A stretch of 64,000 nucleotides of DNA from Gemmatimonadaceae bacterium. Lineage in GTDB: Bacteria; Gemmatimonadota; Gemmatimonadetes; Gemmatimonadales; Gemmatimonadaceae. Location: NCBI GenBank assembly GCA_040882285.1, contig JBBEBQ010000010.1, positions 124,001-188,000 on the forward strand, written 5' to 3'. A model generated the notes under the pieces. The model made no database searches. It was not told the DNA's origin and was given only the letters and a program-made list of their open reading frames with translations. Both the position numbers and the translations under genes were made by a program. This document shows positions 7,022 through 63,055 of the stretch, one piece after another (the stretch's first letter is position 1; every line of letters starts with the position of its first letter).

Positions 7022-7027
7022 GGCGTG

Positions 7028-8055: not shown

Positions 8056-8074
8056 CCGCCCGCCTCACCTTGAG

Positions 8075-9560: not shown

Positions 9561-9573
9561 GCCCAAACTCGTT

Positions 9574-10216: not shown

Positions 10217-10221
10217 TTTCA

Positions 10222-11115: not shown

Positions 11116-11124
11116 CGACGAGTT

Positions 11125-11152
11125 GTTAGCTGCTAGCTGCTAGCTGCTAGCT
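11125..11152. repeat. Heptamer tandem array B (GCTAGCT type), four units
   Basis: Units GTTAGCT, GCTAGCT, GCTAGCT, GCTAGCT in strict 7-base steps, filling the gap between the convergent ends of fabI (11115) and the GGDEF gene (11157). Each unit contains the AGCT palindrome, so the array can fold on itself and may act as a terminator-like structure. Confidence 0.8.
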
Positions 11153-11156
11153 GTAG

Positions 11157-42936: not shown

Positions 42937-45288
42937 TCATCCCGCCGCGCGGAAGCCGCGCAGCCGCAGGCTGTTGGTCACTACGCTGACCGAGCTGAAC
43001 GCCATCGCCAGGCTGGCGAGAATCGGACTGAGCAGCAGTCCGAGCACCGGATACAGCGCGCCCGCCGCGATCGGGATTCCGATGACGTTGTATATGAACG
43101 CCCAGAACAGGTTCTGCTTCATCGTCCGCATCGTCCGCCGCGACAGGCGGACAGCCTGCACCACGCTTCCCAGGTCGCCGCGCATCAGCACCACGTCGGC
43201 GGCCTCGGCCGCGATGTCGGTCCCGGTGCCGATGGCCATTCCGATGTCTGCCTGTGCGAGCGCGGGCGCGTCGTTGATCCCGTCACCCACCATGGCGACG
43301 ACCTGGCCTTCGCTCTGCAGGCGCTTGATCTCCTCCACCTTTCCCTTGGGGAGCACGCCGGCGACCACGCGACTGATGCCTGCCTCCCGCGCGATTGCGC
43401 TCGCGGTTTTCTCGTTGTCGCCGGTGAGAAGAACAACGTCGAGTCCCAGTCGTTGCAGTCGCGCGATCGCGTCACGCGACGTGCTTCGGATCGGATCCGC
43501 GATCGCGAGCAGTCCCGCGAGCTTCCCGTCCGCGGCCACGTACACCGCCGTCTTCGCTTCCGCGGACAGCCGATCCGCGTCGGAACGCAGCGACGATGCG
43601 TCCGCGCCGGCGTCGGACACCATGGCCTCGTTCCCAGCCGCGACTCTCACGCCATCGACGACGCCGGACAGACCCTTGCCCGTAACGGTGGAGAACGATT
43701 CCACGCCGGCACGCGCGATACCGCGGCTCTCCGCGTAGCGCACGACCGCGTCCGCGAGCGGATGCTCGCTGGATCCTTCGAGCGACGCGACCAGATGGAG
43801 CAGACGGGTCTCGTCCTGCACGGGACCGCCCGGAGCCAGAACCATGTCCGTCACCGTCGGCTTCCCTTCCGTCACGGTGCCAGTCTTGTCCATCGCGATC
43901 ACCGTGAGATCCCCGGCGCGCTGCAGCGCCTCCCCGCCCTTGATCAGCACGCCCATCTCCGCGCCCTTGCCGGTCGAGACCATTACCGCCGTCGGCACCG
44001 CCAGTCCCATCGCGCACGGGCAGGCGATGATGAGCACCGCGACGGCCGCAGCGAACGCGCGCACCGCCGGCGCCGTGTCCGCCGTGACGAACCATGCGAC
44101 GAATGTCACGATGGCGATCGAGATCACCACCGGCACGAAGATCCCGCTGATCCTGTCCGCCAAGCGCTGGATCGGCGCGCGCGATCCCTGCGCGTCGCGC
44201 ATGAGCTTCACTATCTGCGCCAGCACGCTGTCGGCGCCGAGCGTCGTCGCGCGGTATCGCACCGATCCCGTGAGGTTGACCGTGCCGCCGATCATCCGGT
44301 CGCCGGTCTTCTTCGCAACCGCGAGCGATTCTCCGGTGAGCATCGACTCGTCCACCGCGCTCTCCCCCGACAGCACCTCGCCGTCGACGGGCACCCGCTC
44401 ACCGGGCCGGAGCACGATAGTCTCGTCGTGCTGCACGCTCTCGACCGGAACGTCGACCTCCGCGCCGTCGCGCAGCACTCGCGCCGTCTTCGGCCGCAGG
44501 CTCGCGAGCCCGCGCAGCGCGGCGGCGGTCTGCTTCTTGGCGCGCGATTCGAGCGCGTTGCCCGCGAGGATGAGCGCGATGATGATTATCACCGCCTCGT
44601 AGTAGACGTCGGGCGGGATCCCGCGACTCACGAAGAAGCCGGGCCTCAGCGTCGCCAGGAGCGAGTACAGAAACGCCGCGCCCGTGCCGACGGCGATCAG
44701 TGTGTTCATGTCCGCGGCGTGGTGGCGGAAAGCCGTCCATGCGCGGGTGTAGAAGTGGCGCCCCGCCCACAACATCACGGCCGCGGTCAGCAGGAGCAGG
44801 CCGTAGGACAGCGCTTGCGCCGGAATCCCGTACAGCCACGGCGCGACCGACTGCAGCCACGGCGTGAGCGACGTCATGGTCCAGCGCATGAACGGATCGG
44901 CCGTGGGTCCGTGCGCCTGGTTCGCTGCGTCCGCCATGAGCGGCATCGACAGCGCCATCGCGATCACGCCCGCGATCCCGCTCACGATCGCCTTGCGCCG
45001 GAGATCGAGAAACTCTTCCGTCTGCGCCCGGTCTCGCGCTTCCTGCTCGTCGAACGCGGACAGATCCGGCGCCGCCAGCTCGGCGCCGTATCCGGTCTCC
45101 CGCACCGCCTCGACCAACCGCTCGGGGCTGGTCTCGGCGGGATCGTACGTGATGGTGGCGTTCCCCATCATGAGATTGACCGCGGCGTCCTCGACGCCGG
45201 GCTGCTTCTGCAGGGTGGACTGCACGCGCGACTGGCACGCGGCGCAGGTCATTCCCGTTACCGGGATCCGGACCTTGGTGTGCGTCAT
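42937..45288 (-). CDS. copA: Copper-exporting P1B-type ATPase
   Basis: A 783-residue P-type ATPase from the ATG that overlaps the cupredoxin stop (ATGA); the frame stays open further upstream but that part is antisense-like. One N-terminal heavy-metal domain carries [11 protein letters not shown] (about 12-22). Membrane helices bracket the transport motif ACPCAMGL near 423. The phosphorylation site DKTGT lies near 466 and [10 protein letters not shown] near 672. It pumps Cu(I) out of the cytoplasm using ATP. Confidence 0.96.
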
Positions 45289-45650
45289 TCTTCCGCTATC
45301 AGCGTCCCGCGTAGCATCGCCATGCCGCACATGAACTCGTACCGGCCCGGCTTCGGCGGCGTGATTTCGATCGTCGTTTTTTCGCCCGTCGGGAGAAACT
45401 TCCGGACGCCGAAATCCGGGAATACGACCTCTTCCGAGCAGCTCGAATCGTCCTTGCGATCGAACACGATCCTGAGCGGAACGCCGGCCCGTGCGCGGAT
45501 CGTCGCGGGTGAGTAGCCGTTGTCCACCGTTATCACGACCTCGGATCCCCGGACGGTCGCCGCGGCTCGGCCCGCCACAAAGAAGTACCAGTTGACCCAC
45601 ACGATTCCGGCGAGCCCCGCCGCCATCACGAGCAATTCGGTCGTCGACAT
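45285..45650 (-). CDS. Membrane-anchored cupredoxin-domain protein
   Basis: A 121-residue protein with an N-terminal helix ([22 protein letters not shown]) and a cupredoxin domain (about 35-120). Copper ligands could come from [11 protein letters not shown] near 71 and the C-terminal loop YEFMCGMAM, where the blue-copper Cys and Met are present. It would hold or pass copper on the periplasmic side. First gene of the copper operon, directly behind a likely CsoR site. Confidence 0.9.
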
Positions 45651-47782: not shown

Positions 47783-49015
47783 ATGCAAATGAAAATGACC
47801 CTCCGTGCGCTCGCGCTCACGGCGCTGTCGTGCGCTTTGTTCGCTGGCGGCAGAGCGTCCGCGCAGGCCGGCATCGACAAAGACAAGATTCCCGCGCCCG
47901 CGACCGAGGCCAAGGCCGAGCCCGGCAAGGCGTCGGCGCCTGGCGTCCGCATTCTGTTCGTCGAGACCAGGAAGACCACGCGAGGCGAGACCGCCGAGAT
48001 CTGCGTCGCCGCCGAGGACCGCGGCGGCGGGATCGGCAAGGTCGAGCTGGCGGTGGATGGAGCCAAGCTTCCGGCCCGCGCGCGCGCCGTAGTGGAAGAG
48101 ACCGGCGCGGAGTGCCCGGCCAACTCCTGGGTCTTCGAGACCGATCTCATCCCTGGAGCCAACAATTTCGAAGCGGTCGCCTACACTGCGGCCGGAGCCG
48201 CGTCGGAGCCCGCGCGCGAGACCGTCCACGGAACGAGTCCACTGGCGGGCAGCACGCTGCACATCCTCACCATCGGCATCGATACCTACCGCGACGACGC
48301 GCCCGCACTTTCCTTCGCGCGCAATGACGCGCGGGCGTTCGCCGATTCCCTGCGGCGGCAGGCCTCGCCGCTCTTTGACAGCGTTCGGGTCGACTCGCTG
48401 TTCGACGCCGCCGCGACCAAGGACGCGATCGAAGCCAAGTTCCTGATGCTGGCGGACAGCGTCGGATCGAACGACACGTTCGTCTTCTTCTACGCGGGAC
48501 ACGGCGCGCTGGCGAAGCGCGGCCAATCCCAGACCGAGAGCTTCTTCCTCACGTCCGTCGAGGTCACCGACCTGCGCGACTGGAAGCTGCTCGCGAGCAA
48601 GGGCATTCACGCCGGCGAGCTGCTGATCTGGCTCAGCGGAATCGCGTCGTCCTCGAAGCTCCTCGTGTTCGACGCATGCAACTCCGGATCGATGGGCAAC
48701 TTCCTCGTTGGGAAAGAGGCGGTGGGGCAGAGCCTGTTCAGAACGCTGAGCATGGAAGCGGAGGCCGGAATCCTGGCGGCGACGCAACCTTCGGGCGCCG
48801 CGAAGGAGTCGGCGCTCCTCGGTCGTGGCCTCTTCACCGCCGCGCTGTTGCAGCACGAGCCGGAGCCCGGCGATCGCCCGGCCGTACGGAAGATCGATGA
48901 TCTCGCGAGCGCCGCGCGGCGGGTTCTTCCCGTCTTGTCGAAGCAGTACGGCGTCGTCGATCAGGAGCCGTGGATGCGGATACCGCCGCAGGATTTCCCG
49001 CTCATCGTCAGGTAG
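47783..49015 (+). CDS. Secreted caspase-fold (C14) protease with N-terminal Ig-like domain
   Basis: About 410 residues. Any of three clustered ATGs (47783, 47789, 47795) gives a signal peptide ending ASAQ. Residues about 45-145 look like an all-beta immunoglobulin-type domain. Residues about 150-400 are a caspase/metacaspase fold beginning HILTIGIDTYRDDAPALSFARNDARAF, with catalytic His in FFYAGHGA (H240) and Cys in VFDACNSGS (C299). Such orthocaspases usually cut after basic residues. It opens a four-gene run with a PPC-repeat protein and two more caspases; the gap to the next gene is 11 bases. Confidence 0.9.
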   Translation: MQMKMTLRALALTALSCALFAGGRASAQAGIDKDKIPAPATEAKAEPGKASAPGVRILFVETRKTTRGETAEICVAAEDRGGGIGKVELAVDGAKLPARARAVVEETGAECPANSWVFETDLIPGANNFEAVAYTAAGAASEPARETVHGTSPLAGSTLHILTIGIDTYRDDAPALSFARNDARAFADSLRRQASPLFDSVRVDSLFDAAATKDAIEAKFLMLADSVGSNDTFVFFYAGHGALAKRGQSQTESFFLTSVEVTDLRDWKLLASKGIHAGELLIWLSGIASSSKLLVFDACNSGSMGNFLVGKEAVGQSLFRTLSMEAEAGILAATQPSGAAKESALLGRGLFTAALLQHEPEPGDRPAVRKIDDLASAARRVLPVLSKQYGVVDQEPWMRIPPQDFPLIVR

Positions 49016-49026
49016 CCGCGCCTCCC

Positions 49027-52000
49027 ATGCCCGCCATCCGCTCGCTCGCGCTCGCGTTCTCTCTGGCCGCGCCGCTGCTTCCCGCCGTCTCCGCGGCGCA
49101 GGACTCGGGCACGTCCAGCGGCCCGAGTTACGGAACGCACGCCCGGCGCGCGCCGGCGCGCGCCATCACGGTCGGAGCCACACACGAAGCGGCGCTGACC
49201 GCGAGCGATCCCATCTTCCCGGACGATTCGTATTTCCAGGTGTGGCGTTTCTCGGCGCGCGCGGGACAGGACCTCGCCGTCGCGCTCGAGTCGCGGGACT
49301 TCGACGCGGTCGCGATGCTCGTGGACGCGCGCGGTGAATCGCAGCAGCCGTTGCAGATGGAGCTGGCCGACAGCGCCAGGACCGCGCGCTTCGCGATACG
49401 GATCCCGGCGGACGGCGACTACCTCATCGTCGCGAACACGCTGCTGGCGAGACGAACCGGAGGCTACCGGATCTCGCTCTCGACGCTTGCGGAAGCGTGC
49501 GTTGCCGGCGGGCCCTGCGCCGTGGAAGGCGCCGCCCCCGGCGACCTGACGCCGATCAGCCGCATCGACGTGGCCGCCGCGCGGTCCATCGCCGTGGGCG
49601 ATTCCATTCCGGCCGAGCTCACGCGCGCGGATTCGCGCCTGCGTGACAGCAGCTTCTTCGACGCCTGGCGCTTCGAGGGCGGCGAAGGCGAGCGGATCGT
49701 GATCGACCACGGCTCGCCGGACTTCGACACGTATCTGATCCTCGCCCGCCAAACCGGGAGCGGACCGGAGTCCATTCGCGAGAACGACGACGCGCCGTAC
49801 ACGCGCGACTCGCAGCTCGCGGTCGAGCTGCCCGCGACGGGAACGTACGTGATCGTCGCGACGAGCCTGCGCCCCGACACGGTCGGTCGCTACACGCTGC
49901 GCCTGCGGTCGCTGGCCGCCGCGTGCGCCGCGGGCGGACCGTGCGAGCCTACCGCAGGTCCGGGTCAAAGGCGCGCTCTCTTCGCTTCCGTTCCGTCGGC
50001 GCGCAGGGCTCCCCTCGCGCTCGGCGACACGGTGTCGGCGCGGCTCGGTCGCGGCGACGCGATGCTCGGCGACGGCACCTTCTTTGACGCGTACAGTTTC
50101 ACGGGCGCGGCCGGCGACGAAGTCGCGATCCTGCTCTCGTCGACGGCGCCCGACATCGGCCGCATGGACCCGTTCCTTCATCTCCTGCGGCTGGACAGCG
50201 ACACGATCGTCGTGGTGAAGTCGGACGACGACGGCGGCGCCGGCAACAACTCGATGGTCACCGCGCGGCTGCCCGATACCGGTGAGTACATCGTCCTGGC
50301 GAATGGTCTCACCGTGGCGGACACTGGGAGCTACGCGCTGTCATTCATGCGGCTCTCGGACGCGTGCGCTTCGCTCCGGGTTTGCGAGGTCGGCGCGGAA
50401 ATCCCGCAGGCGTCGGCCGAGGCCACCGTCCTCGCCGCGCCCGCGACGCGGATCGCGTTGGGCGATACGGTCGCCGGCAAGCTCGAGAGCGAGAGCTTGA
50501 CGCTGCCGGATGGAAAGCCGTTCCAAGCATGGCGCTACACGGCCAGGGCCGGTGAGCGCGTCGTGATCACCAACCGCTCCGGCGACTTCGACGCGTATCT
50601 GCAGCTGTACCATTTCGGCGATGGTACACTGCGCGAGATCGAGCGCGATGACGACGGCGGCGGAAGCCTCGACGCACAGCTCTCCGTCGAGCTCGCCGAA
50701 GCCGGCGACTATCTGATCGTCGCGGGAAGCTTTTCGACCAGCGCCACCGGCGACTATCGTCTTTCCCTCGAAGACATGCGCGCCGCCTGCGCCGCGGGTG
50801 GGCCATGCGCCGTGGGCGAGACTTCGGCGGGGCGCGACAGGCTGCTCCCCGCTCTCGCCGCCACGTTCGCGCCTTTCCCCGCCGGCGACACCGTCAGCGC
50901 CGAGCTGCCGTTGTCTGCCCCGCAGATGCCGGGCAGAGGCCGCTTCCAGTCGTACCGCTTCGAGGGCCGCGCTGGCGAGCGCATCGTCATCAACATGAAT
51001 GCGGAGCAATTCGATCCGTATCTCGATCTGGCGCTGGTCCGCGGCAGCTCGCTCAGCGTCATCGGCAGCGACGATGACGGCGGAGAAGGAGTCAACGCCA
51101 GGCTCGTGGCCACGCTGCCCGAGAACGGCACGTATCTGCTGGTGGCGTCGGCGCTGAGTGCCGACAGCGCGCGCGGCGCCGGCGCGTACACGCTGAGCCG
51201 CGGCCCGTGCGACGACGCCTGCGCCGCGGACGACGGCACGCCCGTGGTCCGGTCGCCCCGCCTGCCGGGACTCGTGTTGCGCGCGGAGCGGCGCGCGATG
51301 CCGCGGAGCGGAGTCGTGGCGGACTCGCTCACCACCGCCGACGCGCGCCGGAACGGCGCCGCGTTCCATGCGTTCTCATTCGAGGGTGCCGCCGGGCAGA
51401 CGTTGCGCGCATCGCTCCAGTCCGTGGAATTCGATCCGTATCTGGTCGTGCTGCGAGTCGAGGGAGACTCGCTCCGCCAGGTCCAGACCGACGACGACGG
51501 CGGCGAGGGCACCAATTCGCTCGTCGAATGGCAGGTCGACCGCGCTGGTACGTACGTCGTGGTAGCCACCTCGTATTCGGGGTCGTCGAGGGGGTCGTAC
51601 ATCCTCCATGTCGCGCAGGGCCCCGAGTCCGAGAGCGCCGCATTCGCGAGCACCGTCGCCGCCGCCGGCGTGCGCGCGCAGCTTGGCCTCGCGCTGGTCG
51701 CGCCGCATCGATCCCTGCCGCCGGGTACGGCCGTCGCCGGGGAATTCGTCGAGCGGACGCCGCGGCTCCCCGGCAAGGGCCGCTTCCAATCGTATCGCTT
51801 CACCGGCCGCGCGAGCGAGCGCGTGGTGATCACGATGGTGTCGCGCGACACGGACCCGTACGTGTACCTCGCGTCGCTGGACGGAAACGCGGTGAGGATC
51901 GTCGACACCGATGACGATGGCGGGGACGGAGTCAATGCCCGCCTGGTGGCCACGCTGCCGGCCGCGGGCGAGTATCTGGTGGTCGCCACGGCATACGCCC

Positions 52001-52494
52001 CGAGCGACACCGCGAGCGTCGCCAGGTACACGATCATGCTCGCTCCCTGCGACGACGCATGCGCCGCGGAGACCGGTGAAGAAAGCTCCGGCACGTCCAA
52101 CCAAGCGACGTCGCGGCTGATACTTGCCGCTCCGCGGCGAGCGATCCAGTCCGGCGTCCCGGTCCGGAGCGCGCTCGCGGACGGCGATTCGACGTTGTCC
52201 GACGGCTCCTATTTCCATGCCTACCAGCTCGATGCGGCGGCGGGCTCGGTGCTGCGCGCCTCGATGGAGTCATCGGCCTTCGATACGTTCCTGTACCTGT
52301 ATCGCGTCGAGGGAGACTCGCTCATGCGTGTCACCTACGACGACGACAGCGGCGAGGACACGAACTCGCTCATCGAATGGACAGTGGATACGACCGGGAG
52401 CTACATCCTGGTCGCCAACGCTCTCGCTCGCGATTCGCGCGGCGAGTACACGCTCACCGTGTCGCAGCCGCCCGCGCGCGAGCGAACGCATTGA
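49027..52494 (+). CDS. Secreted protein of eight pre-peptidase C-terminal (PPC) domains
   Basis: A 1,155-residue exported protein (signal peptide ending VSAAQ) that is almost wholly PPC repeats. Eight copies of about 110-120 residues are visible, centred near nucleotides 49300, 49740, 50170, 50600, 51010, 51430, 51860 and 52290. Each has WRFxGxxGERIVI, a (D/E)FDxYL strand and a DDDGG loop near its middle, ending in GTYLLVAxS. Linkers carry cysteine pairs such as ACAAGGPC and DDACAA, perhaps disulfides. PPC domains usually ride on secreted proteases; here there is no protease in the chain, but three caspases are encoded on either side. Binding, scaffold or substrate roles are all possible. Confidence 0.88.
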   Translation: MPAIRSLALAFSLAAPLLPAVSAAQDSGTSSGPSYGTHARRAPARAITVGATHEAALTASDPIFPDDSYFQVWRFSARAGQDLAVALESRDFDAVAMLVDARGESQQPLQMELADSARTARFAIRIPADGDYLIVANTLLARRTGGYRISLSTLAEACVAGGPCAVEGAAPGDLTPISRIDVAAARSIAVGDSIPAELTRADSRLRDSSFFDAWRFEGGEGERIVIDHGSPDFDTYLILARQTGSGPESIRENDDAPYTRDSQLAVELPATGTYVIVATSLRPDTVGRYTLRLRSLAAACAAGGPCEPTAGPGQRRALFASVPSARRAPLALGDTVSARLGRGDAMLGDGTFFDAYSFTGAAGDEVAILLSSTAPDIGRMDPFLHLLRLDSDTIVVVKSDDDGGAGNNSMVTARLPDTGEYIVLANGLTVADTGSYALSFMRLSDACASLRVCEVGAEIPQASAEATVLAAPATRIALGDTVAGKLESESLTLPDGKPFQAWRYTARAGERVVITNRSGDFDAYLQLYHFGDGTLREIERDDDGGGSLDAQLSVELAEAGDYLIVAGSFSTSATGDYRLSLEDMRAACAAGGPCAVGETSAGRDRLLPALAATFAPFPAGDTVSAELPLSAPQMPGRGRFQSYRFEGRAGERIVINMNAEQFDPYLDLALVRGSSLSVIGSDDDGGEGVNARLVATLPENGTYLLVASALSADSARGAGAYTLSRGPCDDACAADDGTPVVRSPRLPGLVLRAERRAMPRSGVVADSLTTADARRNGAAFHAFSFEGAAGQTLRASLQSVEFDPYLVVLRVEGDSLRQVQTDDDGGEGTNSLVEWQVDRAGTYVVVATSYSGSSRGSYILHVAQGPESESAAFASTVAAAGVRAQLGLALVAPHRSLPPGTAVAGEFVERTPRLPGKGRFQSYRFTGRASERVVITMVSRDTDPYVYLASLDGNAVRIVDTDDDGGDGVNARLVATLPAAGEYLVVATAYAPSDTASVARYTIMLAPCDDACAAETGEESSGTSNQATSRLILAAPRRAIQSGVPVRSALADGDSTLSDGSYFHAYQLDAAAGSVLRASMESSAFDTFLYLYRVEGDSLMRVTYDDDSGEDTNSLIEWTVDTTGSYILVANALARDSRGEYTLTVSQPPARERTH

Positions 52495-52553
52495 CGCGGC
52501 ACAGACATTCATCGCGCAATATCTCAACCACCCCGAACCAACAAGGCCCCCAC

Positions 52554-53975
52554 ATGTCCGTCTCAATTCTGCGGTCTCCAGCCCTCACCCTGCTCACCGG
52601 CCTCGTGCTCGCCTGCGGCACCAGTGACGCGAAGGATCCGGTCTCGAAGCAAGCGTTGCTCGCGGGTGTCAGCACCGCGGCCAAGTCCTCGCCCACGTCG
52701 CTGACTCTGGGGCAGGCGGTCACCGGATCGCTCGACGCGACCGACCCGAAGCTCCCGGACAGCAGCCACTTCGACCAGTGGACGTACGATGGGAGGCAGG
52801 GTGAGCGGATTCAGATCACGCTCGAATCGTCCGCATTCGACGCGTATCTGATTCTGGCGCAGCAGGCCGGCGCGAGCATGGAATCGGTAGCCGAAGACGA
52901 CGACGGCGCCGGCGACAGGAATGCGCGTATCACCGCCGAGCTACCGGCCGACGGCACGTACCTGATACTGGCGAACAGCTACGGCGAAGGCGCCACCGGC
53001 GCCTACACGCTGCGCGTGGATCGCGGCAGCGCGGCGAACACCGCCGCGCAGCGCCCGGCCGCCATCGATTACGCCGCGCGCTATCCCGGCGGCGGCGATC
53101 CGAACGGCCGGTACGCCATGATGGTAGGCATCGACGACTACCAGGGCATCGCCAACAATCTGGACGGGCCGGTCGCCGACGCGCGACTCATGGGCCGGAT
53201 CCTCGTGGAGCGCTACGGCTTCGCGCCGGCGAACGTGATCTACCTCACCGATCGCGAGGCGACGCGGGAGCACTTGGCGGAAGCGTTCCTGCGGCACCTC
53301 GGGCAGGCGGGACCGGAAGGCGTGGCCGTCTTCTATTACTCCGGTCACGGAATGCAGATGGAGGAGAATCTCGCTCTCACCGGGACTCTCGACCCCGAGC
53401 CTGACGATGTGGATGAAGCGCTCGTCATGTGGGGCGCCGATGGCCGCGGCGGCATACTGCTCGACGACGAGCTGGGCTTTCTCGCCAACCGGCTCCGCAC
53501 CGACAGAGTGCTCGTGATCATGGACGCGTGCTTCTCCGGAACGGGCACGAGGGGCGCCGCGGGCGGCCAGGCCAAGGAAGTGAAGTTCAGCGACGTGCAG
53601 GGCAACCTTACGATCCCGACGTCGTTCCTGACGGACAACGCGCCGGCGGGCTCGACCGTGAGCAAGTCCGGCAACGTGTCCGACCTGCTGGGTGAGCCGG
53701 AGCGGCATCTGCTGCTCGCCGCGTCGTCGGACGATCAGCTGTCGTGGACCGCGTCCGGCTGGCCGAAGTACGGCGGCACGATCAGCGTGTTCACGTACTA
53801 CCTCGCGGAAGCGATGGAGGCGTCGCCGGACAACGCGACTTTCTCGTCGCTGATGCAGGGCGTTCGCGGAAAGACCCTGGCATACACGCAGTCGAACTAC
53901 AACGCACGGCAGACGCCGCAGCCCGAAGGACGGCAGAGCGGCATGTCCATCCGGGAGTTCCTGCGGCAGAGGTAA
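52554..53975 (+). CDS. Lipoprotein with PPC domain fused to a caspase-fold protease
   Basis: About 473 residues from the ATG at 52554. A lipobox (VLACGTS, about residue 20) marks a lipoprotein. One PPC domain (about 40-160; SLTLGQAVTGSLDATDP to GTYLILANSYG) shares the DDDGA loop and EFDAYL-type strand of the eight-repeat neighbour. The caspase domain (about 180-473; RYAMMVGIDDYQGIANNLDGPVADA) has catalytic H265 (YYSGHGM) and C326 (MDACFSGTG). The shared PPC module is the clearest sign that the repeat protein and the proteases work together. It starts 59 bases after that gene and ends 8 bases before the next caspase. Confidence 0.9.
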   Translation: MSVSILRSPALTLLTGLVLACGTSDAKDPVSKQALLAGVSTAAKSSPTSLTLGQAVTGSLDATDPKLPDSSHFDQWTYDGRQGERIQITLESSAFDAYLILAQQAGASMESVAEDDDGAGDRNARITAELPADGTYLILANSYGEGATGAYTLRVDRGSAANTAAQRPAAIDYAARYPGGGDPNGRYAMMVGIDDYQGIANNLDGPVADARLMGRILVERYGFAPANVIYLTDREATREHLAEAFLRHLGQAGPEGVAVFYYSGHGMQMEENLALTGTLDPEPDDVDEALVMWGADGRGGILLDDELGFLANRLRTDRVLVIMDACFSGTGTRGAAGGQAKEVKFSDVQGNLTIPTSFLTDNAPAGSTVSKSGNVSDLLGEPERHLLLAASSDDQLSWTASGWPKYGGTISVFTYYLAEAMEASPDNATFSSLMQGVRGKTLAYTQSNYNARQTPQPEGRQSGMSIREFLRQR

Positions 53976-53983
53976 GAACACCG

Positions 53984-55984
53984 TTGAAGAAAAGGATCTT
54001 CGCGCTCGCCGGTGTCGCCCTCGCGGCGACGCTCACCGGCTTCGCCGGCACCGGCGAGCGCGCGCCGCAGCGGGCGCCGCGGCATCTGTCGCTGCTGATC
54101 GGCGCCGGCAACTACAAGTACGCCAGCGAATGGAAGGACCTCAAGAACCTGAAGGGCCCCCGCACCGACGTGCGGCGGATGCAGCACACGCTGCGCCGCT
54201 GGGGCTTCCGTGATGACGCGGCCAGCCAGCGCGTGCTCGTGGATCAGCAGGCGTCCAAGGCGGGCATAACGGCGGCGTTTCGCTGGCTCGCGTCGCGGGC
54301 GACCGACAGCAGCGACGTCGTCGTGATCTACTACTCGGGACACGGGTCGTGGGCCCCCGACCAGGACATCGACGCGATTCGAACGAAAGACGAGTCGCGC
54401 AGAGTTCCCGGCGACAACTACGACGAGGCGCTCGTGCCGTGGGACGCGCGGGACCCGCACAACCCGCGGCACCTCCTGCTCGACGACGAGATCAACGCGT
54501 TTCTCCGCGCGCTCGGCACGGGCAACGTGACGGTGATCGTGGACGCCTGTTTTTCCGGTACCGTTACCCGCGGCTCGCCCGACACCAGCTCGACCGCGCC
54601 GGTCGCGCGCGGACCGCGGCCGCCGCCCTTCGAGCGGATCGCCGCCGGCGACCTGCTCGGCGACGGGCGCAACCCGAAACACACCCTGCTCACCGCGGCG
54701 TCGTCGTCGGAGCTGGCGTACGAGAAGACGTTCCACCCCGGCGCGGTGGTGTCCGGCGTATTCACTCGGCATCTCGCGCAGGCACTCGACGGCGCGAGCC
54801 CCAACACGCGCTTCGACGACTTGCTGCAACAGGTGCGCACGAAAGTTGGACAGGGCCAGACGCCGCAGCTCGAGGGCGACCGCGGGGCGCGGATCTTCAA
54901 GGTAGGCGAGACCGCCGTCGTGCCCGCGCGCGGATATTCCATCGTCGTCGGCGCCGGCGCCGGTCGCGTCGGATTGGACGCGGGCGCGCTGCACGGTGTG
55001 CGCAAGGGCACGCTGTACGACGTGTACGGGCCGGGCGAGACCGACTTTCGCGACGGGCGTCTGGCGCAGGTGCGCGTGGACTCGATCTTCGAGGCGTCTT
55101 CCTTCGCGAGCATCCTGCCGGGAGCGCGGCCGATACCGCGCGGCGCGCGCGCGACGCTGAGCCGGGTGCCCGCCGGCGCGATGGCGCTCGATCGCCTGCG
55201 CCTTTTCGTCAACCCGAATGCCCGGGCGTTGCGCGATTCGCTCGCCCGAGTGCCATGGCTCGAGCTGACGACGCAGCCGGCGCGCGCCATGGCGGAGCTG
55301 CGCCGCCGCGGCGACGCGTACCAGGTGATCGTCGAAGGGCACGAGCTTCCGCCGCTGGTCGCCGACATCTCGTCCGGCAGGGCCGCGCCGGTCGGCGCCG
55401 ATTCGGTCCGCGGCTACATGGGAAATGTTCGTTCGCTGTGCACGCCGCTGCGGCGGGCTTATTCGATCGCCGCGATGAATCTCGTGCGCAACGACCAGCC
55501 GCCGTCGAATCTCAAGGTCGAAGTCCGCGTGTTGCCGGCGAGCGCGCGAGCGCCGGCCAGCCGTCCGCGAAGCATGGTCGACACGGTGCACGTCGGGCAG
55601 CGATACGGTGTCTGGGTCTGGGTCGAGGTGCCTGACGAAGCAGTCCAACGCTCCGCGCTCTATCTCACGGCGGGAGTCGCCGGCTATGCCGGCGTGCCGG
55701 CGGTCGTCTGGCCTCGAGGCCCCGAGCAGACGCGGCTTACCCCGGAGCAGATGAGCCAACCGGTGCTGCTGCGCGAAATCACGCCGTCCCTTCCGGAAGG
55801 GATCGAGAACATCAAGGTGGTCGTCAGCTCCGACCCCTACAGCCTCCGTCCGCTCGTGACCGAGCTGCCGCGCTGTCCTGTCGACATCATCCGTGACGCT
55901 TCGAGAGGAGGTCCGGACGGCGACGCGGGCGCCGTGACCGGCTGGACGGCCGTCACGCGCAGGATCGAGATCTACTCCCGCTGA
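53984..55984 (+). CDS. Secreted caspase-fold protease with large C-terminal extension
   Basis: About 666 residues, starting at a TTG (LKKRIFALAGVALAATLTGFAG, a good signal peptide) eight bases after the previous stop. The caspase domain (about 35-305) has H120 (YYSGHGSW) and C189 (VDACFSGT). The remaining 350 residues hold a beta-rich region (GYSIVVGAGAGRVGLDAGAL, GTLYDVYGPG) and a C-terminal domain with no recognised family that ends RRIEIYSR. Its 3' end is six bases from the end of the convergent anti-sigma gene. The extension may bind substrate or membrane; that is inference. Confidence 0.88.
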   Translation: MKKRIFALAGVALAATLTGFAGTGERAPQRAPRHLSLLIGAGNYKYASEWKDLKNLKGPRTDVRRMQHTLRRWGFRDDAASQRVLVDQQASKAGITAAFRWLASRATDSSDVVVIYYSGHGSWAPDQDIDAIRTKDESRRVPGDNYDEALVPWDARDPHNPRHLLLDDEINAFLRALGTGNVTVIVDACFSGTVTRGSPDTSSTAPVARGPRPPPFERIAAGDLLGDGRNPKHTLLTAASSSELAYEKTFHPGAVVSGVFTRHLAQALDGASPNTRFDDLLQQVRTKVGQGQTPQLEGDRGARIFKVGETAVVPARGYSIVVGAGAGRVGLDAGALHGVRKGTLYDVYGPGETDFRDGRLAQVRVDSIFEASSFASILPGARPIPRGARATLSRVPAGAMALDRLRLFVNPNARALRDSLARVPWLELTTQPARAMAELRRRGDAYQVIVEGHELPPLVADISSGRAAPVGADSVRGYMGNVRSLCTPLRRAYSIAAMNLVRNDQPPSNLKVEVRVLPASARAPASRPRSMVDTVHVGQRYGVWVWVEVPDEAVQRSALYLTAGVAGYAGVPAVVWPRGPEQTRLTPEQMSQPVLLREITPSLPEGIENIKVVVSSDPYSLRPLVTELPRCPVDIIRDASRGGPDGDAGAVTGWTAVTRRIEIYSR

Positions 55985-55990
55985 GCTGCG

Positions 55991-56668
55991 TTACGGCGCG
56001 AGCCGGCGCAGCGTGACTCCGACCGCGCCGGGCGGCAGCGGTCGAGTTTGATCCTGCGCCGCCACGGGTCGGATCGTGATTGAAGATCGCTCGAGGCCGG
56101 CATCCATGAGCCCTTCCACAACACGCTCCGCCAGCCGCGCGGCCCGGAGTGATTCATCGGTGCCCGTGACGTAACGCAGCTCCGCTGTGATCCCCGGCCC
56201 GCTGATATCCCACGACACCGAATCGATCGAAGTCGTGCCCGATTCGGTCACGATCGTCTCGTTCGCCAGGGTGTCGAGCGGCGTCGCTCCCTTGGCGCCG
56301 GATGGCGGTTGTTCCTCCGGGGGCGGCTCCCGCCACGCTCGCGGAACGAACAGAGCCAGAGCCGCGGCCGCGGCCAGTCCCACCGGCAACAGGAAAGCCC
56401 GACGCCGCGTTCGCCGCGCACGCAAGGAAATCACCGGAGCTCCCTGAGCAGCCTCAGCCCGCCGCACGCGAATCTTCTCCGTCAACGAAGCGGACGGCTT
56501 GCTCCCGAGGCTCAGTGCCGCCGTCACGCGGCGGATGGCCGCTATCTCCTCCCGGCACTCGGCGCACGATGCGACGTGGGCGGTCACGCGCTCGTCCATC
56601 GCTTCTCCGTCGGCATGCGCTTGCAGCTCGGCGGCATCGGGATGCGTCCCGTTCATATCCTCAGCCAT
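55991..56668 (-). CDS. Membrane anti-sigma factor with zf-HC2 domain
   Basis: A 225-residue protein. The zinc motif is HVASCAEC (about 31-38), one membrane segment is FLLPVGLAAAAALALFVP (about 91-108), and the periplasmic part (about 110-225) has a proline-rich linker and a globular region without a known family. It overlaps the sigma gene by eight bases and should restrain that sigma factor. The stop is six bases from the end of the convergent caspase gene, so cleavage of its periplasmic domain by a caspase is an attractive but untested link. Confidence 0.85.
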   Translation of the reverse strand: MAEDMNGTHPDAAELQAHADGEAMDERVTAHVASCAECREEIAAIRRVTAALSLGSKPSASLTEKIRVRRAEAAQGAPVISLRARRTRRRAFLLPVGLAAAAALALFVPRAWREPPPEEQPPSGAKGATPLDTLANETIVTESGTTSIDSVSWDISGPGITAELRYVTGTDESLRAARLAERVVEGLMDAGLERSSITIRPVAAQDQTRPLPPGAVGVTLRRLAP

Positions 56669-57278
56669 TCGGCGCTCTCAACGGAGACACGAGGTACTTG
56701 CGAATTGCGACCAGCCAATTCCGCGCGGTTGCTTCGGTCAGGTTCAATTTCTTTCCGATCTCCTCGTAGCCGTAGCCATCGCGGTACAGATCGATGAACT
56801 CGGCCCAGCGTTGATGCTTCGGCTCGGCGCTCGAGCGCAGCTCCGCGATCCGCCGCTCGAGCTCGAGCAGCTCGTCCCGATCCACCGAGTCCAGCTCCGC
56901 TGCGATCGCGTTCGCCTCATCCTCGAATGAGACGTTGCGCCGCTTCGCCCCCGAGCCCTGCCGTCCCTTCCAGTCTCCGGTCAGCTTCTCGCGCGCGCGG
57001 AGCGCGGCGCGAACGGCGACCTGCGCGAGCCACTTTTCCGGCTTCCCTTCTTCCCTGTACTGCCCGGCCGCTTCCATCAACCCTACTAATACATCGCTCG
57101 TGACGTCTTCCGTCGCCTCCCGCGGCTCTCGCAGCCAGGAGATCGTTCGCAGCACGTAAAAGACCCGCGTCCACACCAAGTCGCGATAACCCTGATAACA
57201 TGCCGCCCATGCCGCTTTCCTGACCTCTTCAGATTCGGAGCGCATCTGGAGCAACAGCTGCCCGAGATCGGCGCTCAT
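56661..57278 (-). CDS. ECF-type RNA polymerase sigma factor
   Basis: A 205-residue sigma factor with region 2 at about 20-90 (AAWAACYQGYRDLVWTRVFYVL, then EDVTSDVLVGLMEAAGQYR) and region 4 at about 140-195 (FIDLYRDGYGYEEIGKKLNLTEATARNWL). Region 2 is longer and less canonical than in the first sigma of the window. It is transcribed from the 197-base region shared with the TolB/TPR gene and is followed by its anti-sigma partner. Confidence 0.85.
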   Translation of the reverse strand: MSADLGQLLLQMRSESEEVRKAAWAACYQGYRDLVWTRVFYVLRTISWLREPREATEDVTSDVLVGLMEAAGQYREEGKPEKWLAQVAVRAALRAREKLTGDWKGRQGSGAKRRNVSFEDEANAIAAELDSVDRDELLELERRIAELRSSAEPKHQRWAEFIDLYRDGYGYEEIGKKLNLTEATARNWLVAIRKYLVSPLRAPNG

Positions 57279-57430
57279 CTATAGAGATGGATGACGGCGG
57301 GGGCGGCGATTGCCATCCGGATCAGCATTCGGGCACTCGATGACAAATCGTGGTCACGCCGTATTCATTGAGTTGCGGGCCGTCGTCCAGCCGTGTTGCG
57401 GAATCTGCAGTGCGTTCCCAGTTTACGGCG

Positions 57431-57475: not shown

Positions 57476-58345
57476 ATGGCGACGGAAGGGCGGCCCAGGA
57501 CGCCGGTAAAGACCGCTGCGCTCACTTACGTTCCCACCGTAGGCGCCTTCGTCGCGCTCGCGAACAACATCTTCTCGCTGCTTGGAGCCACGCCCACCTG
57601 GCAGCGCCGAATCGTGCTCGGGGTGCTCGCATCGGTCCCGGTCGTTCTCGCGATTACGTGGATTTTCGGCACGCCGAGGACGGGCGACAGCTGGTTCGCG
57701 CGCGCGACCCGGACTCGCTCCGGGCGGCTGGCCTTCGCCGCGGTTCCCACAGTGCTTGTCGCGGCGACCCTCATGTGGACCATTGGGCCGCTTGCCGCGG
57801 GCGAAACGAAGGTCGAGCCGCGCGTCTCGGTTGCCCAGTTCCGCGACGACAGCCCGCAGAGTGACCACGCATATCTTGCCAGCGGGCTGTCCGAAGAGCT
57901 GGCACTGGCTCTGGAGCGCGTGCCGGGGATGGAGGTGCTCGACTCACCCGACTCCGCCGTCGTCCTCATCGAAGGCGCCGTGAGCCGGTGGAAGGACAGC
58001 CTGCGCGTCACCGCCAAGCTCCTGCGCAACTCCGACAAGCGGCGCCTCCGAACGGTACGGTACGAGCGCCCGTTCGGCGACGTGTTCGCGCTGCAGGATT
58101 CCCTCTCGCGGGACATCGTGCGGGAGCTCCTGCCGCACATTCCGGGCGGTCTGACGAAGGGCGGGATCCGCATGCGGGATCCGCTGCCCGAGGCGTACGA
58201 CCTGTATCTTCGTGCTCGCTTCGCGCGTGACAGCGAAGGAAATGTGGCCAGGGCAGATTCGCTTTTCCGGGCCGCGCTCGCGGTCGATCCGTCGTTCGCG
58301 CGCGCGCGGCAGGATCTCGCGGCACTGGGATCCGGCGCGCGCTGA
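57476..58345 (+). CDS. Membrane protein with TolB-like (FlgO-type) domain and TPR-like tail
   Basis: A 289-residue protein. Two hydrophobic segments (about 43-62 and 80-100) anchor it; the rest is presumably periplasmic or cytoplasmic. Residues about 115-225 match the domain found before TPRs in many adenylate-cyclase- or kinase-linked proteins: FRDDSPQSDHAYLASGLSEEL, VVLIEGAVSRWKDSLRVTAKL and ERPFGDVFALQDSLSRDIV. One TPR-like helical pair closes the protein (AYDLYLRARFARDSEGNVARADSLFRAALAVDP). It diverges from the second sigma gene, so it could be one of that factor's targets. Confidence 0.8.
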   Translation: MATEGRPRTPVKTAALTYVPTVGAFVALANNIFSLLGATPTWQRRIVLGVLASVPVVLAITWIFGTPRTGDSWFARATRTRSGRLAFAAVPTVLVAATLMWTIGPLAAGETKVEPRVSVAQFRDDSPQSDHAYLASGLSEELALALERVPGMEVLDSPDSAVVLIEGAVSRWKDSLRVTAKLLRNSDKRRLRTVRYERPFGDVFALQDSLSRDIVRELLPHIPGGLTKGGIRMRDPLPEAYDLYLRARFARDSEGNVARADSLFRAALAVDPSFARARQDLAALGSGAR

Positions 58346-58388: not shown

Positions 58389-59144
58389 ATGCGTTCGATG
58401 CTCGATCGGAAGAGCTTGCTGTGTGGGGTGGTGATCGCTGCCGTAGCCGCAGCGTGCGTTCCGCCCGGAGTCAGCACGGTCGTGGGCGGCACGTGCGCGA
58501 TGTGCGCGGTGTTCGATAAGAAGGCCGAGGTCCCCGCGGCGGCCAAGGCGGTTTCTCCCGGCACCCGCGCGGCGGACGTCGTCGCGCTCGCCGCGAACCT
58601 GGCGGATCACGGTTACAGCACCAACTCCCCGCTGTCGCTTTTGACCGCCGCCGAGCTGCTCATGCAGGCTTCCCCGACGGCGCTGAGCGGAAAGCGGGGC
58701 ATCACGATGCCCGCGGTCACGGCCAAGTCCGGCGCGGCGGTGACGTTCGAGCCGGGGGCGATGATCGCCGCCGCGCGCTCCATGGCGGGTGGCAACACCG
58801 GCGTCGCTGCCCTCGCGACGCAGCTCCAGAACCGGCTGGCCAGCGGGCCGAAGGGAGCGGTCGGCGGTCCTCGCTCGACGGTTGATCGCGTTCTCTCCAA
58901 CTCGACCGACATCTGGGAGATCCGCTTCCGCGGCGGCGAGCGCGGCTCCATCCGCGTGGGCGGCGATGGCGATACGGACCTCGACTGCTACGTCTACAAT
59001 TCGGCGGGTACGCTCGTCGCCTACGACAACGATCTCACGGATTACTGCATCCTCGACTGGTACCAGGCATCCACGGGCAACATCCGGCTCGAGATCAGGA
59101 ACCTCGGCGACGTGTACAACGAGTACATCCTCAGCACCAACTGA
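58389..59144 (+). CDS. Lipoprotein with PPC-like C-terminal domain
   Basis: A 251-residue protein; the ATG at 58389 has GGAGGG upstream. The signal ends in the lipobox AAACVPPG near residue 21, followed by a Cys pair (TCAMC). The middle (about 40-150) is Ala/Ser-rich without a known family. The C-terminal 85 residues (IWEIRFRGGERGSIRVGGDGDTDLDCYVYNS to NEYILSTN) have the strand order of a PPC domain with an Asp-rich DGDTDLD loop, echoing the PPC proteins 6-9 kb upstream. It ends before a bidirectional terminator. Confidence 0.75.
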   Translation: MRSMLDRKSLLCGVVIAAVAAACVPPGVSTVVGGTCAMCAVFDKKAEVPAAAKAVSPGTRAADVVALAANLADHGYSTNSPLSLLTAAELLMQASPTALSGKRGITMPAVTAKSGAAVTFEPGAMIAAARSMAGGNTGVAALATQLQNRLASGPKGAVGGPRSTVDRVLSNSTDIWEIRFRGGERGSIRVGGDGDTDLDCYVYNSAGTLVAYDNDLTDYCILDWYQASTGNIRLEIRNLGDVYNEYILSTN

Positions 59145-59210: not shown

Positions 59211-62200
59211 CTACTGCACGCGGATGTTGACACCGCCGGGCCCGGGCGGTGCCGCTGCGGGCGCGTCGGTGAAGCGCACCGGATTTCCGAACTGCCACCG
59301 GGTGTTCTCGCGATCTTTCATGGGAGTCTCCAGCATCCGCTGAAACATCGGGATGAGCTCGCGCTGCGCCGGCGACACGGCCTCGGCCGCGATCTCCGGC
59401 TGCTCCCAGAAAATCTTCCAGTACGCCTTCTGCGCGACGAGCACGCTGTCGAGCTCGGTCTTGCCGGCGCTGCCCTGTCCCGCGGCCAGCAGCTCTCCAA
59501 TAGCGCGATAAACGGCGCGCACTCTCTCAGAGTACACGGAATCGGCCTGCCGCAGCATCGCGATCTGCGTCGCGCTCAGGAACAGCGAATCGCTCTCGGA
59601 CAGCAACAGCTTGTGGACACTGGACGTGTTCGACAGGTAGAACGCGGCAATCGAATCGGCGGTCCTCCGCTGCCAGCGGCCGTCCATCCGCACGGGTTCC
59701 ACCGCGCGGCGAAGCTCCTGCACGTCGAAGTCCACCGAGAGGTTCACGGAGAAATCGATCACGACGCGGAACGGATCGCGCCCGATCGAGCGGCCCGCGC
59801 GGTTGCTGCCGAAGCGCGGATTCACGTCGTACCGGAAGCGGTTGGCGGCCGGATCGAAGCCGCGCGGCAGCAGCAATACCGGATCCGCGTAGGACGACCG
59901 CGCGAGCACGTTCTGCAGATACACGTTCGGGGATACGCGCCGCCGCCACTTCGGCGGAATCGGCGGCACCCACTGAATGCTCAGCGACTGCGTGCCTGGG
60001 CCTCTGCACGAGTTGCGGCCGGGAACCGAGCCTGCATTCTCGCGGAGGCAGTCGCGCGCGCCGGCGGGGCCGTTGGCGGCGAGCGCCGCGATCTGGCTCG
60101 CGAGCGCGGCGTCGGGCTCCGTCGCGGGTCTTGGAATGTAGGCTCTGTCACCGCCGCGGCCGTCGCCGTTCACGTCCCCCTGCACGACCGGCGTGAACGG
60201 CAAACCCGATTGCGCTCGGCCGAACAGCGTGATCGTCCCCACTTTCGGATTGGAAAAGCCGCCCGTGAGCACGAGCACGTTGCGCGCGTCGCTCGAGTTG
60301 GGGGCCCACTCGCGCTCTCGCGGATCACCGAAGCTCGCGCCGTCGAATCCGCGGTACTGCCGCCGCATCCACTGCAGCGTGTAGTTGGCGGACACGTGGA
60401 AATTGAACCTGCCCCGCATCTTGAACACGTCGGGCGAGAGACCGAACGTCAGTTGCCCGCCGTATCCGCGCAGGTCGCTCACGCGAGTTGTCACGGAGCC
60501 GAACTGATCCGACCTGCGCGATTCGGCTGCCGACACCGACCCGCTGGTCGTGTCTATCGCCGACTGGGTCACGTACACGGGGCGACCGGCTTCGCTCGCC
60601 AGCGCGAAGCGCTGCACGCCGGAAAAGTTCGCATCCACCAGTCCCGGCTGCGACAGATCGTACGACGCCAGGCCGCCGACCTTGACCAGCCACTTCTGAA
60701 AGATGTTCGTGGACCAGTCGAGCGACGCGCGCCAGCTCCGCGGCACGTCGTACGACGGGTCTATCAGCGTCACGCGCGGCGCGCGCTCTCCCAGCGGACC
60801 ATTGCCGTCGAGACACTGCGTGGGAATCGATGCGGGGTTCGACTCGAACATCGCCCAATCCGCCAATGGCGTCGCTGCGCCCACGCACGAGAGGTTCGAC
60901 GTTCCTCCCGGCAGACCCGTCGCGGCCGATGCTTCGGCGAGAATGTCCGGCCGCAGCAGGTCGCGGAACTCTCCGATGCCACCGCGGATCACTCCTGTGT
61001 TGTACCTGTAGAACCTGCCGATCTGCGACTGATTGATCCCCGACCCGTTGTCCTTGTCGCGGTTATAGCGGAAAATGAAACCGACGCGGGGGCTGATGTG
61101 CACGCGCGCTGGCGCTGCACCCGTCTCGACGCCGAGCGCCTGCTCGAGCGCGGGGTTCTTCGCGGGCGAATCGAAGAAGCCGTCGGCCTCGACGCGCGCG
61201 CCGTACAGCACGCTGAGGAACTGCGACTTGGTGTACGAGTGCGCCAGCGCCGCCGCTCCGTTCCACACCTTGCCGGCGCGTGTCGGCTGCGCCAGCGTGC
61301 GCGAGAAGCTGCTGGGATCGCCGGCGGCGAAGTCCTCCAGCGAGTTGAAAGTGAAGGTGCCCAACCGGTTGGGAGCACCCGCCTGTTCGAGTCCGTCGGC
61401 GCGTCCCCAGAGCAGCGCCTTGAACCGGTGGCGGCGTCCGCCCGCGTTCCAGATCGTCTCGTTCGCGCCTTCGATCGTCCACCGGCTGTCGTCGGCGGAG
61501 AAGAACGGCCCCCCGCCGACGCTCAACGCCGCGACGTCGTTGCTGCCGTCCGCGCCGGGCGAGCGCACCATGACGTTCGCTCCCGGGAGTACGCGATACG
61601 GCGTAGTCTCGGTGGAGACCTTCCCCGCCGCGATGCGCGTCTCGCTTAGAATGCGACGTCCCGGGCCAACGTATTCGCCCAGTGTGATCTGTCCGCCGAT
61701 CGTGCGCTCGCGCCTCTCGCCCGCCGCGGACGGAGCGCTGAGCGGGCCGAATCCGAGTGCGCCTTCCCTGACCGATCCTATGTACGTGGTGAGCGCGCGG
61801 ACTTTGAGCGTGTCGCGTGTATCGTCCAGCCGGCCGAGCCAGGTGAGCGCGTCGCGCTTCCGGCTGCCGGGGATGCCGCTTCCGCTGAGCGAGAGACCGG
61901 CGGGATTCGCCAGCGCGATCAGTCGCGCGACGGAATCCGGTGACACTCCCGCGCGCGTCAGCGCTTCGACGTCGGCGTCCAGCAGCGTCGCGGGATCGCT
62001 GGAGTTCTGCGCGACTTCGACTGCGACGTTGTACGTGAGCGCGCGGCGGATCAGCTCGCCGTCGGCGCCGAAGCTCGCCTTGAAGCCGCCGCTCTTCGCT
62101 CCCAACGCCAACGCCGTCGCATCCGCGAACTGCAGCGCCTGCGGGTCGAGCGTGACGAAGCCGTTGCGGCGCTGGTAGGTCCTGCTTCCCGGTCCGAGCC

Positions 62201-62942
62201 GAACGTCTATGTTCGCGCCGGCGAAGCCGCCGCGGGTCGGGTCGAACGTCGCGCCGGTGACTCGCGTTTCGGTGCGCGCCGCGCGCGGCACTGACGCCGC
62301 GGCCATTCCCATCCCGTTCAGCGTGTTGAGATTGGACTCCGCGCCCGCGCCGAGTATGGATATCCCGCCCGGCGTCTGCGTGACGTTCGACATCGTGCCG
62401 GCCAGCGCGTTGAGATCTCCGGCGACCGTCGGCGCGACCTGCCCGGCGACGCCGTCGGCCCAGCGCTCGGACGATCCGGGCTCGAGCTGCGTGGGATTGA
62501 CGTTGTTGCTCGCACGGACCGGCCGCGTCGCATTGATGCGCACCGCTTCCAGCTCGGCGAGGTTGGACGAGAGCGTGAAATCGGCGACGAGCTCCCGCTC
62601 GGTTCCCTGACGCTGCACTCTGCGGCGCGCGGACCGGAGCCCTTCAGCGCTGACCGCGACGAGGTAATCCCCCGTTCCGGTGTCGAACCGGACGCGATAA
62701 TCGCCCGCGCTGTCCGTTTTCGTTTCCTGCGTGGCGCGATCGGGTCCACGAGTGACCGTGATGGAGGCTCCCACTATCGCCCGGCTAGAGTCGTCGGTCA
62801 CGCGCCCGCGAATGATGTCCGCTTGAGGATCCTGAGCCGCCGAGGACAAAGGTGTCAGACAAAGCGTGAGCGCCGCTACGACAGTGGCGGGCGTTGCTCT
62901 GCGAAATAGAGAGCGAACGTCGGGAAATCGATCGAAATCCAT
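59211..62942 (-). CDS. TonB-dependent receptor with carboxypeptidase-regulatory-like domain and C-terminal helical extension
   Basis: About 1,243 residues from the ATG at 62942 (signal peptide ending SSAAQ); an upstream start at 62996 is less likely. An N-terminal CarboxypepD_reg domain (about 42-125; IIRGRVTDDSSRAIVGASITV) precedes a plug (about 130-255) and an outer-membrane beta-barrel up to about residue 1090 (VVIDFSVNLSVDFDVQ). Unusually, the chain continues about 130 residues beyond the barrel as a helical region with two LTxxQ-like motifs (LSATQIAML, VSPAQRELI) and a Pro-rich end. Receptors of this type import oligopeptides or glycans. It is monocistronic here. Confidence 0.92.
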   Translation of the reverse strand: MDFDRFPDVRSLFRRATPATVVAALTLCLTPLSSAAQDPQADIIRGRVTDDSSRAIVGASITVTRGPDRATQETKTDSAGDYRVRFDTGTGDYLVAVSAEGLRSARRRVQRQGTERELVADFTLSSNLAELEAVRINATRPVRASNNVNPTQLEPGSSERWADGVAGQVAPTVAGDLNALAGTMSNVTQTPGGISILGAGAESNLNTLNGMGMAAASVPRAARTETRVTGATFDPTRGGFAGANIDVRLGPGSRTYQRRNGFVTLDPQALQFADATALALGAKSGGFKASFGADGELIRRALTYNVAVEVAQNSSDPATLLDADVEALTRAGVSPDSVARLIALANPAGLSLSGSGIPGSRKRDALTWLGRLDDTRDTLKVRALTTYIGSVREGALGFGPLSAPSAAGERRERTIGGQITLGEYVGPGRRILSETRIAAGKVSTETTPYRVLPGANVMVRSPGADGSNDVAALSVGGGPFFSADDSRWTIEGANETIWNAGGRRHRFKALLWGRADGLEQAGAPNRLGTFTFNSLEDFAAGDPSSFSRTLAQPTRAGKVWNGAAALAHSYTKSQFLSVLYGARVEADGFFDSPAKNPALEQALGVETGAAPARVHISPRVGFIFRYNRDKDNGSGINQSQIGRFYRYNTGVIRGGIGEFRDLLRPDILAEASAATGLPGGTSNLSCVGAATPLADWAMFESNPASIPTQCLDGNGPLGERAPRVTLIDPSYDVPRSWRASLDWSTNIFQKWLVKVGGLASYDLSQPGLVDANFSGVQRFALASEAGRPVYVTQSAIDTTSGSVSAAESRRSDQFGSVTTRVSDLRGYGGQLTFGLSPDVFKMRGRFNFHVSANYTLQWMRRQYRGFDGASFGDPREREWAPNSSDARNVLVLTGGFSNPKVGTITLFGRAQSGLPFTPVVQGDVNGDGRGGDRAYIPRPATEPDAALASQIAALAANGPAGARDCLRENAGSVPGRNSCRGPGTQSLSIQWVPPIPPKWRRRVSPNVYLQNVLARSSYADPVLLLPRGFDPAANRFRYDVNPRFGSNRAGRSIGRDPFRVVIDFSVNLSVDFDVQELRRAVEPVRMDGRWQRRTADSIAAFYLSNTSSVHKLLLSESDSLFLSATQIAMLRQADSVYSERVRAVYRAIGELLAAGQGSAGKTELDSVLVAQKAYWKIFWEQPEIAAEAVSPAQRELIPMFQRMLETPMKDRENTRWQFGNPVRFTDAPAAAPPGPGGVNIRVQ

Positions 62943-63055
62943 GGCGGTAGCTGCTGAAGAGTGATCGGACTGACCGATTAGACATTCATCGGCCAAAAAC
63001 GGTTCGCTAACCGTTGCCTACCCGTACGACCCCGTGACAAGGGTGTTTCCTCATC

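Follow-up and report, generated by a model that had tools for sequence, protein, structure and literature searches.

Predicted exported metacaspase-type proteases and a PPC repeat array in an accessory island of a Gemmatimonadaceae bacterium

To our knowledge, little has been established about the roles that bacterial caspases play outside the cytoplasm. A 2012 study reported operons with as many as three metacaspase genes and also probable extracellular members of the family (PMC3501461), and an aquatic survey detected metacaspase genes and transcripts of Gemmatimonadetes (PMC4933709). Orthocaspases cut on the C-terminal side of basic residues (PMC6426788), and in type III-E CRISPR systems a caspase-fold protease inactivates a sigma factor inhibitor (PMC10028731). 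Our literature search, conducted outside subscription journals, returned no paper on clusters of PPC-domain and caspase genes.

We analysed a 64-kb stretch (hereafter, the window) of the 2.9-Mb draft genome of a Gemmatimonadaceae bacterium (G000), and compared it with the genomes of a sister species (G001), a more distant one (G003), and a fourth (G002, 89% complete). The initial annotation had described six frames, i.e., four plus-strand genes followed by a convergent minus-strand sigma/anti-sigma pair. Their coordinates and spacing were confirmed, and the intergenic gaps from the first caspase gene to the anti-sigma gene are exactly 11, 59, 8, and 6 bases. The genes and sites of the locus are as follows.

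47783..49015, plus strand: CASP1, the variable caspase, with a signal peptide, an Ig-like (Big-type) region, and a C14 domain (H240/C299)
49027..52494, plus strand: PPC8 (1155 aa), a signal peptide and eight PPC beta-sandwich repeats
52554..53975, plus strand: CASP2, with the lipobox LVLAC, one PPC repeat (52683-53024), and a C14 domain (H265/C326)
53984..55984, plus strand: CASP3, with a TTG start, a signal peptide, a C14 domain (H120/C189), and a C-terminal region of ~370 aa that is kept in orthologues
55991..56668, minus strand: anti-sigma factor, with an HxxxCxxC zinc-type motif, a helical N-terminal domain, and one transmembrane segment, beyond which a disordered linker and a periplasmic OmpA-like domain (peptidoglycan-binding type) are predicted
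56661..57278, minus strand: ECF-type sigma factor
57393..57420, minus strand: motif TGGGAACG-N8-ATTCCGCAACAC upstream of the sigma gene, a candidate autoregulatory site
57476..58345, plus strand: TolB-like/TPR protein carrying hydrophobic segments at its N-terminus; the gene is oriented divergently from the sigma gene
58389..59144, plus strand: lipoprotein with a PPC-like C-terminal domain
59211-62996: large CarboxypepD_reg/TonB-type receptor, within the insertion relative to G002 and not seen at the G003 site

A heavy-metal (probably copper) P-type ATPase gene and a cupredoxin-like gene (42937-45650) form a conserved flank of the island.

The three caspases matched the Pfam C14 family (PF00656) above its cut-off (E values of 1.4e-10, 4.9e-21, and 2.2e-24 for CASP1, CASP2, and CASP3), and they were the sole C14 genes found in the G000 genome. 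The sequences nearest to all three are metacaspases, including solved ones, and the metacaspase S1-pocket Asp that precedes the Cys is conserved. The His and Cys of each pair were verified in sequence. Those of CASP1 are kept in all three alleles (G000, G001, and G003), and the conservation of the catalytic residues among orthologues, on which the initial annotation had staked its interpretation, was borne out in the genus (G001 and G003) and in most relatives. Assignment to the EACC1-associated caspase family (NF047832) was rejected, all three proteins scoring 48.6-54.4 bits where the curated cut-off is 140. Reading the sequences by eye, we found an acidic LLDDE loop in CASP2 and CASP3 that is absent from CASP1, and the loop sits where metacaspases carry part of the calcium site. 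The C-terminal region of CASP3 showed 94% identity in a two-sequence alignment. CASP1, PPC8, and CASP3 each begin with a recognisable type I signal peptide, and CASP2 has a lipobox; these export signals, also noted at the outset, were called by eye and with a simple heuristic rather than a dedicated predictor, and they support the predicted envelope location of the caspases and PPC8.

PPC8 matched PF04151 (E value of 1.7e-30), and its eight repeats were counted with a profile; the PPC repeat of CASP2 is a weak match under the Pfam cut-off (E value of 0.003). A structural model of the repeat, built from the window's own nine repeats (pLDDT of 93), has a beta-sandwich of the PPC/collagen-binding type. 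Its top PDB match was 5sv5, and the closest structures are the PPC domain of a Bacillus collagenase and the collagen-binding domains of ColG. The array has ten repeats in G003 (L037:3212-7846) versus eight in G000 and G001, and repeats 5-10 of the G003 array resemble duplicated pairs.

Comparison of the two sister species revealed one strongly divergent segment within the otherwise similar block.

47800..50780: cassette divergent between G000 and G001, comprising the entire CASP1, the PPC8 signal peptide, and PPC repeats 1-4

The edges of the cassette lie at ~47.8 kb, where CASP1 starts, and between PPC repeats 4 and 5 (50.78-50.83 kb). DNA identity was 52-74% for CASP1 and the first half of PPC8, and ~90-97% for the M28 gene, most of PPC repeats 5-8, CASP2, and CASP3. 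The synonymous divergence (dS) reached 1.16 in CASP1 and 0.84-1.14 in PPC repeats 1-4, versus 0.25-0.38 in repeats 5-8 and 0.20-0.24 in CASP2, CASP3, and M28, and the cassette values are about those obtained when G000 is compared with G003, the more distant species (0.91-1.02). Fast protein evolution was rejected as the source of the CASP1 divergence, given the sharp border and the accompanying divergence at synonymous sites. Because the segment is sharply bounded, with a dS of ~1 versus 0.2-0.4 on either side, CASP1 and PPC repeats 1-4 appear to have been exchanged as one unit, and the alleles were most likely swapped by recombination. The cassette was seen in one pair of metagenome assemblies, in which a chimeric origin is unlikely, as the frames are intact and flanks are present on both sides. 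The joint movement of CASP1 with half of the neighbouring PPC8 is the strongest hint of mutual recognition or of a common partner, and suggests, from sequence comparison, that CASP1 and PPC repeats 1-4 may be a matched pair. Such a matched CASP1-PPC cassette is new and testable.

The same set of genes, in unchanged order, was found in G001 (the contig matches JANLGX010000505.1 of Gemmatimonadaceae bacterium isolate P6-2). The G003 genes, on contigs C91 and C98, have the order CASP2-CASP3-CASP1-PPC and sit between MoeA/methyltransferase and ETF-QO genes, and the sigma, TPR, and lipoprotein genes of this species are on C146, beside a DUF4953 gene that flanks the sigma-unit site in G000 and G002 too. 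The order of caspase, PPC, and sigma genes, which the initial annotation proposed to search for in relatives, is thus shared across the whole block in G001; in G003 the caspase and PPC genes are rearranged and the sigma unit is separate. In G002, where the genome is 89% complete, the methyltransferase gene directly adjoins M28 with the block missing, and the sigma gene, the TPR gene, and a C14 gene of such kind were all undetected. The M28 and Met-zincin genes are regarded as flanks because both are present in G002 without caspases. The split in G003 and the non-detection of both units in G002 therefore indicate an accessory island of two separable units, the caspase unit and the sigma unit, which are both found in G000, G001, and G003.

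Among 395 Gemmatimonadota genomes surveyed, 77 had C14 genes. We fetched 97 C14 loci (94 outside the genus), which were the better-scoring ones and not a random sample. By the simple heuristic, 74 of the 122 C14 frames in the 97 loci have an export-signal-like start, and predicted exported caspases are thus common in Gemmatimonadota; the general view that bacterial C14 proteins are mostly cytoplasmic, adopted in the initial annotation, fails in this phylum. Near the 94 loci outside the genus (1.33 Mb), 14 PPC frames were observed against 0.9 expected (P = 1e-12), the expectation being derived from 46 PPC genes, counted by hand, in 68.4 Mb. Because the PPC profile is more sensitive than the background Pfam search, the test was rerun with a fourfold denser background, which gave a P value of 2e-5. 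Most of these PPC frames (10/14) are fused to the caspase, and none was found at 17 loci of CHAT genes. Orthologues of CASP2, i.e., PPC-C14 proteins (38-43% over nearly the full length), are spread over three other families (f2, f5, and f6; loci L042, L143, L181, L188, and L192), and those of CASP3 (38-41%) were found at L045 and L142. At L188, a five-PPC protein is encoded next to three C14 genes, of which one carries two PPC repeats, and at L042 genes for PPC-C14, C14-DUF4384, and WD40-C14 proteins lie together. The partnership of PPC domains and caspases, proposed from the window, is solid, based on the recurrent fusion and neighbourhood in the phylum and on the joint exchange of CASP1 and PPC repeats 1-4.

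One of the PPC-C14 orthologues (L143, in G237) has a PycTM gene (Pycsar effector, PF18967; L143:8950-9567) ~84 bases downstream, which may possibly link exported caspases to defence islands.

The sigma factor matched Sigma70_r2 (Pfam, E value of 6e-8), and the NCBIfam anti-sigma match (1e-9) was below its cut-off. Sigma regions 2 and 4, the HxxxCxxC motif, and transmembrane anchoring are all present, as in ECF sigma factors with zinc-type transmembrane anti-sigma factors; the G018 anti-sigma homologue has lost the Cys motif. A PDB sequence search with the anti-sigma factor gave no match, and the best PDB structure matches to its C-terminal domain are OmpA-like and weak (E value of 0.008), with a model pLDDT of 65 overall and about 85 in the OmpA-like domain. 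The sigma factor was detected (E ≤ 1e-12) in only four of the 395 genomes (G000, G001, G003, and G018), and a scan of named genomes with the sigma alignment returned only two congeners. In three species the TolB-like/TPR gene accompanies the sigma gene, and homologues of the lipoprotein adjoin C14 genes in two other genera (G018 at L035 and G044 at L045). The initial suggestion that the lipoprotein may belong to the caspase system gains support from these homologues. The L035 locus (positions 1-12047), which lies elsewhere in the G018 genome than the sigma pair, has two CHAT genes, a subtilase-like gene, a different sigma-like gene, the lipoprotein homologue, and a C14 gene, and comparable trios of CHAT, sigma-like, and C14 genes were seen at L135, L145, and L168. 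ECF sigma genes also lie by TPR-CHAT genes at L102, L105, L107, L109, L110, and L112.

Apart from its 8-base spacer, the 28-base motif before the sigma gene does not differ among the three species, and it was not found elsewhere in the three genomes with up to 3 mismatches. A near match at 32942-32966 was discarded, as it lies inside a penicillin-acylase-like coding frame. No bipartite promoter words common to the sigma and caspase upstream regions were found in G000 and G001. Conserved and unique before the sigma gene, the motif therefore fits autoregulation and lends caspase control no support.

Taken as a whole, the sequence data lead us to favour, with a probability of about 0.5, a set of exported metacaspase-type proteases that has a PPC binding array of its own and is carried in an accessory island. 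In the periplasm or at the cell surface, the PPC array would serve as a scaffold or receptor that binds proteins. Its N-terminal half may bind CASP1, or a variable target that CASP1 binds too, and repeats 5-8 would belong with CASP2 and CASP3, the constant enzymes. The caspases should cut after Arg/Lys, judging from their homology to metacaspases. The LLDDE loop, present in CASP2 and CASP3 and absent from CASP1, makes a cascade plausible in which specificity comes from CASP1 and execution from the other two. The sigma/anti-sigma pair, the TPR protein, and the lipoprotein would form a second unit, found alongside the caspases in the genus and probably regulating itself via the motif upstream of the sigma gene, and the OmpA-like periplasmic domain would act as a sensor of the cell wall or envelope. 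On this reading, the sigma pair would be a lineage-specific companion of the caspase set; the evidence for the sigma link is circumstantial, and the two units are likely linked in function. A further-reaching proposal treats CASP1 as a protease whose cognate receptor (or inhibitor) is formed by the N-terminal PPC repeats, the two making up a polymorphic envelope pair exchanged between lineages like self/non-self or effector-target cassettes, with the caspase cascade reporting via the OmpA-domain anti-sigma factor; we consider this a long shot.

The tie between the sigma pair and the caspases, as put forward initially, stands in the co-occurrence of both units in G000, G001, and G003, and falters on their separation in G003 and on the count of ECF sigma genes near C14 loci (8 observed versus 9 expected, i.e., no enrichment). 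A reading that stays somewhat short of an even chance is that the pair is an unrelated passenger at an insertion hot spot common with the caspase block. The separate units in G003, the convergent layout, which is not an operon, and the missing sigma-upstream motif before the caspases would all agree with a passenger, but both units occur in the same three species and were both undetected in the fourth, and in two other genera C14 genes adjoin homologues of the lipoprotein that accompanies the sigma unit. In the model raised by the initial annotation, a caspase may cut the periplasmic domain of the anti-sigma factor and free the sigma factor, an analogue of DegS/RseA or of Csx29-Csx30-CASP-sigma. 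The topology fits, with exported proteases and a transmembrane anti-sigma factor that has a long disordered linker before its periplasmic domain, and Csx29, which cleaves the ECF sigma inhibitor Csx30, is a precedent (PMC10028731). G018 has a 56% identical sigma factor with its anti-sigma factor, followed directly by a TPR-CHAT protein, and the CHAT loci show a mild excess of ECF sigma genes (6 in 17 loci versus 1.8 expected, P = 0.01). However, CHAT is a different caspase-fold family. No ECF sigma gene was found in the sampled flanks of the PPC-containing caspase clusters L042, L183, and L188, and no promoter motif common to both units was found. With the units unlinked in G003 and no enrichment at C14 loci, the protease-sigma linkage is not conserved in the manner of Csx30, and we regard cleavage of the anti-sigma factor as quite improbable.

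The locus anatomy would also suit plain extracellular protein digestion, in which protein outside the cell is captured by the PPC repeats and cut after Arg/Lys by the caspases, and the TonB-type receptor imports the products, the cassette being a chance recombination. The PPC fold resembles the collagen-binding domains of secreted collagenases, the CarboxypepD_reg TonB-type receptor is within the same insertion, and M28 and Met-zincin genes adjoin the site; M48-TPR peptidase genes also directly adjoin C14 genes in two families (L045:3627-5477 and L183:10214-12154). The M28 and zincin genes are, however, flanks that G002 has without caspases, and bulk digestion does not predict the joint exchange of CASP1 and PPC repeats. 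C14 enzymes are mostly regulatory where tested, which also counts against such nutrient scavenging, and we consider it rather unlikely.

Under the favoured reading of an exported protease set with its own PPC array, the locus offers a defined set of parts, i.e., a variable CASP1, constant CASP2 and CASP3, and a PPC array with a matched variable half, and its natural alleles allow direct comparison of protease-partner specificity. The locus also shows that, within a single phylum, exported caspases repeatedly come either fused to PPC domains or alongside PPC proteins.

Among known systems, RseA/DegS-type regulation likewise has a transmembrane anti-sigma factor with a periplasmic domain, but here this domain is OmpA-like and the putative protease is a caspase. 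The Csx29-Csx30-CASP-sigma system of type III-E CRISPR also has genes for a caspase-fold protease, an inhibitor, and an ECF sigma factor near each other (PMC10028731), whereas the proteases described here are predicted to be exported, the anti-sigma factor is of the zinc-type transmembrane kind, the protease-sigma linkage is not constant, and cleavage is hypothetical. As in the secreted peptidases with PPC domains (collagenases, M4, and S8), the PPC fold accompanies exported proteases; here, it occurs as a stand-alone eight-repeat protein plus one fused copy, and the protease is C14. The closest likeness is to bacterial metacaspases/orthocaspases (MEROPS C14), with which the three enzymes share the p20-like domain, the His-Cys dyad, the Asp pocket residues, and homology to solved metacaspases. 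The locus differs from them in a combination that none of the papers found describes, namely three predicted exported enzymes, a stand-alone protein of several PPC repeats, and a cassette exchanged jointly.
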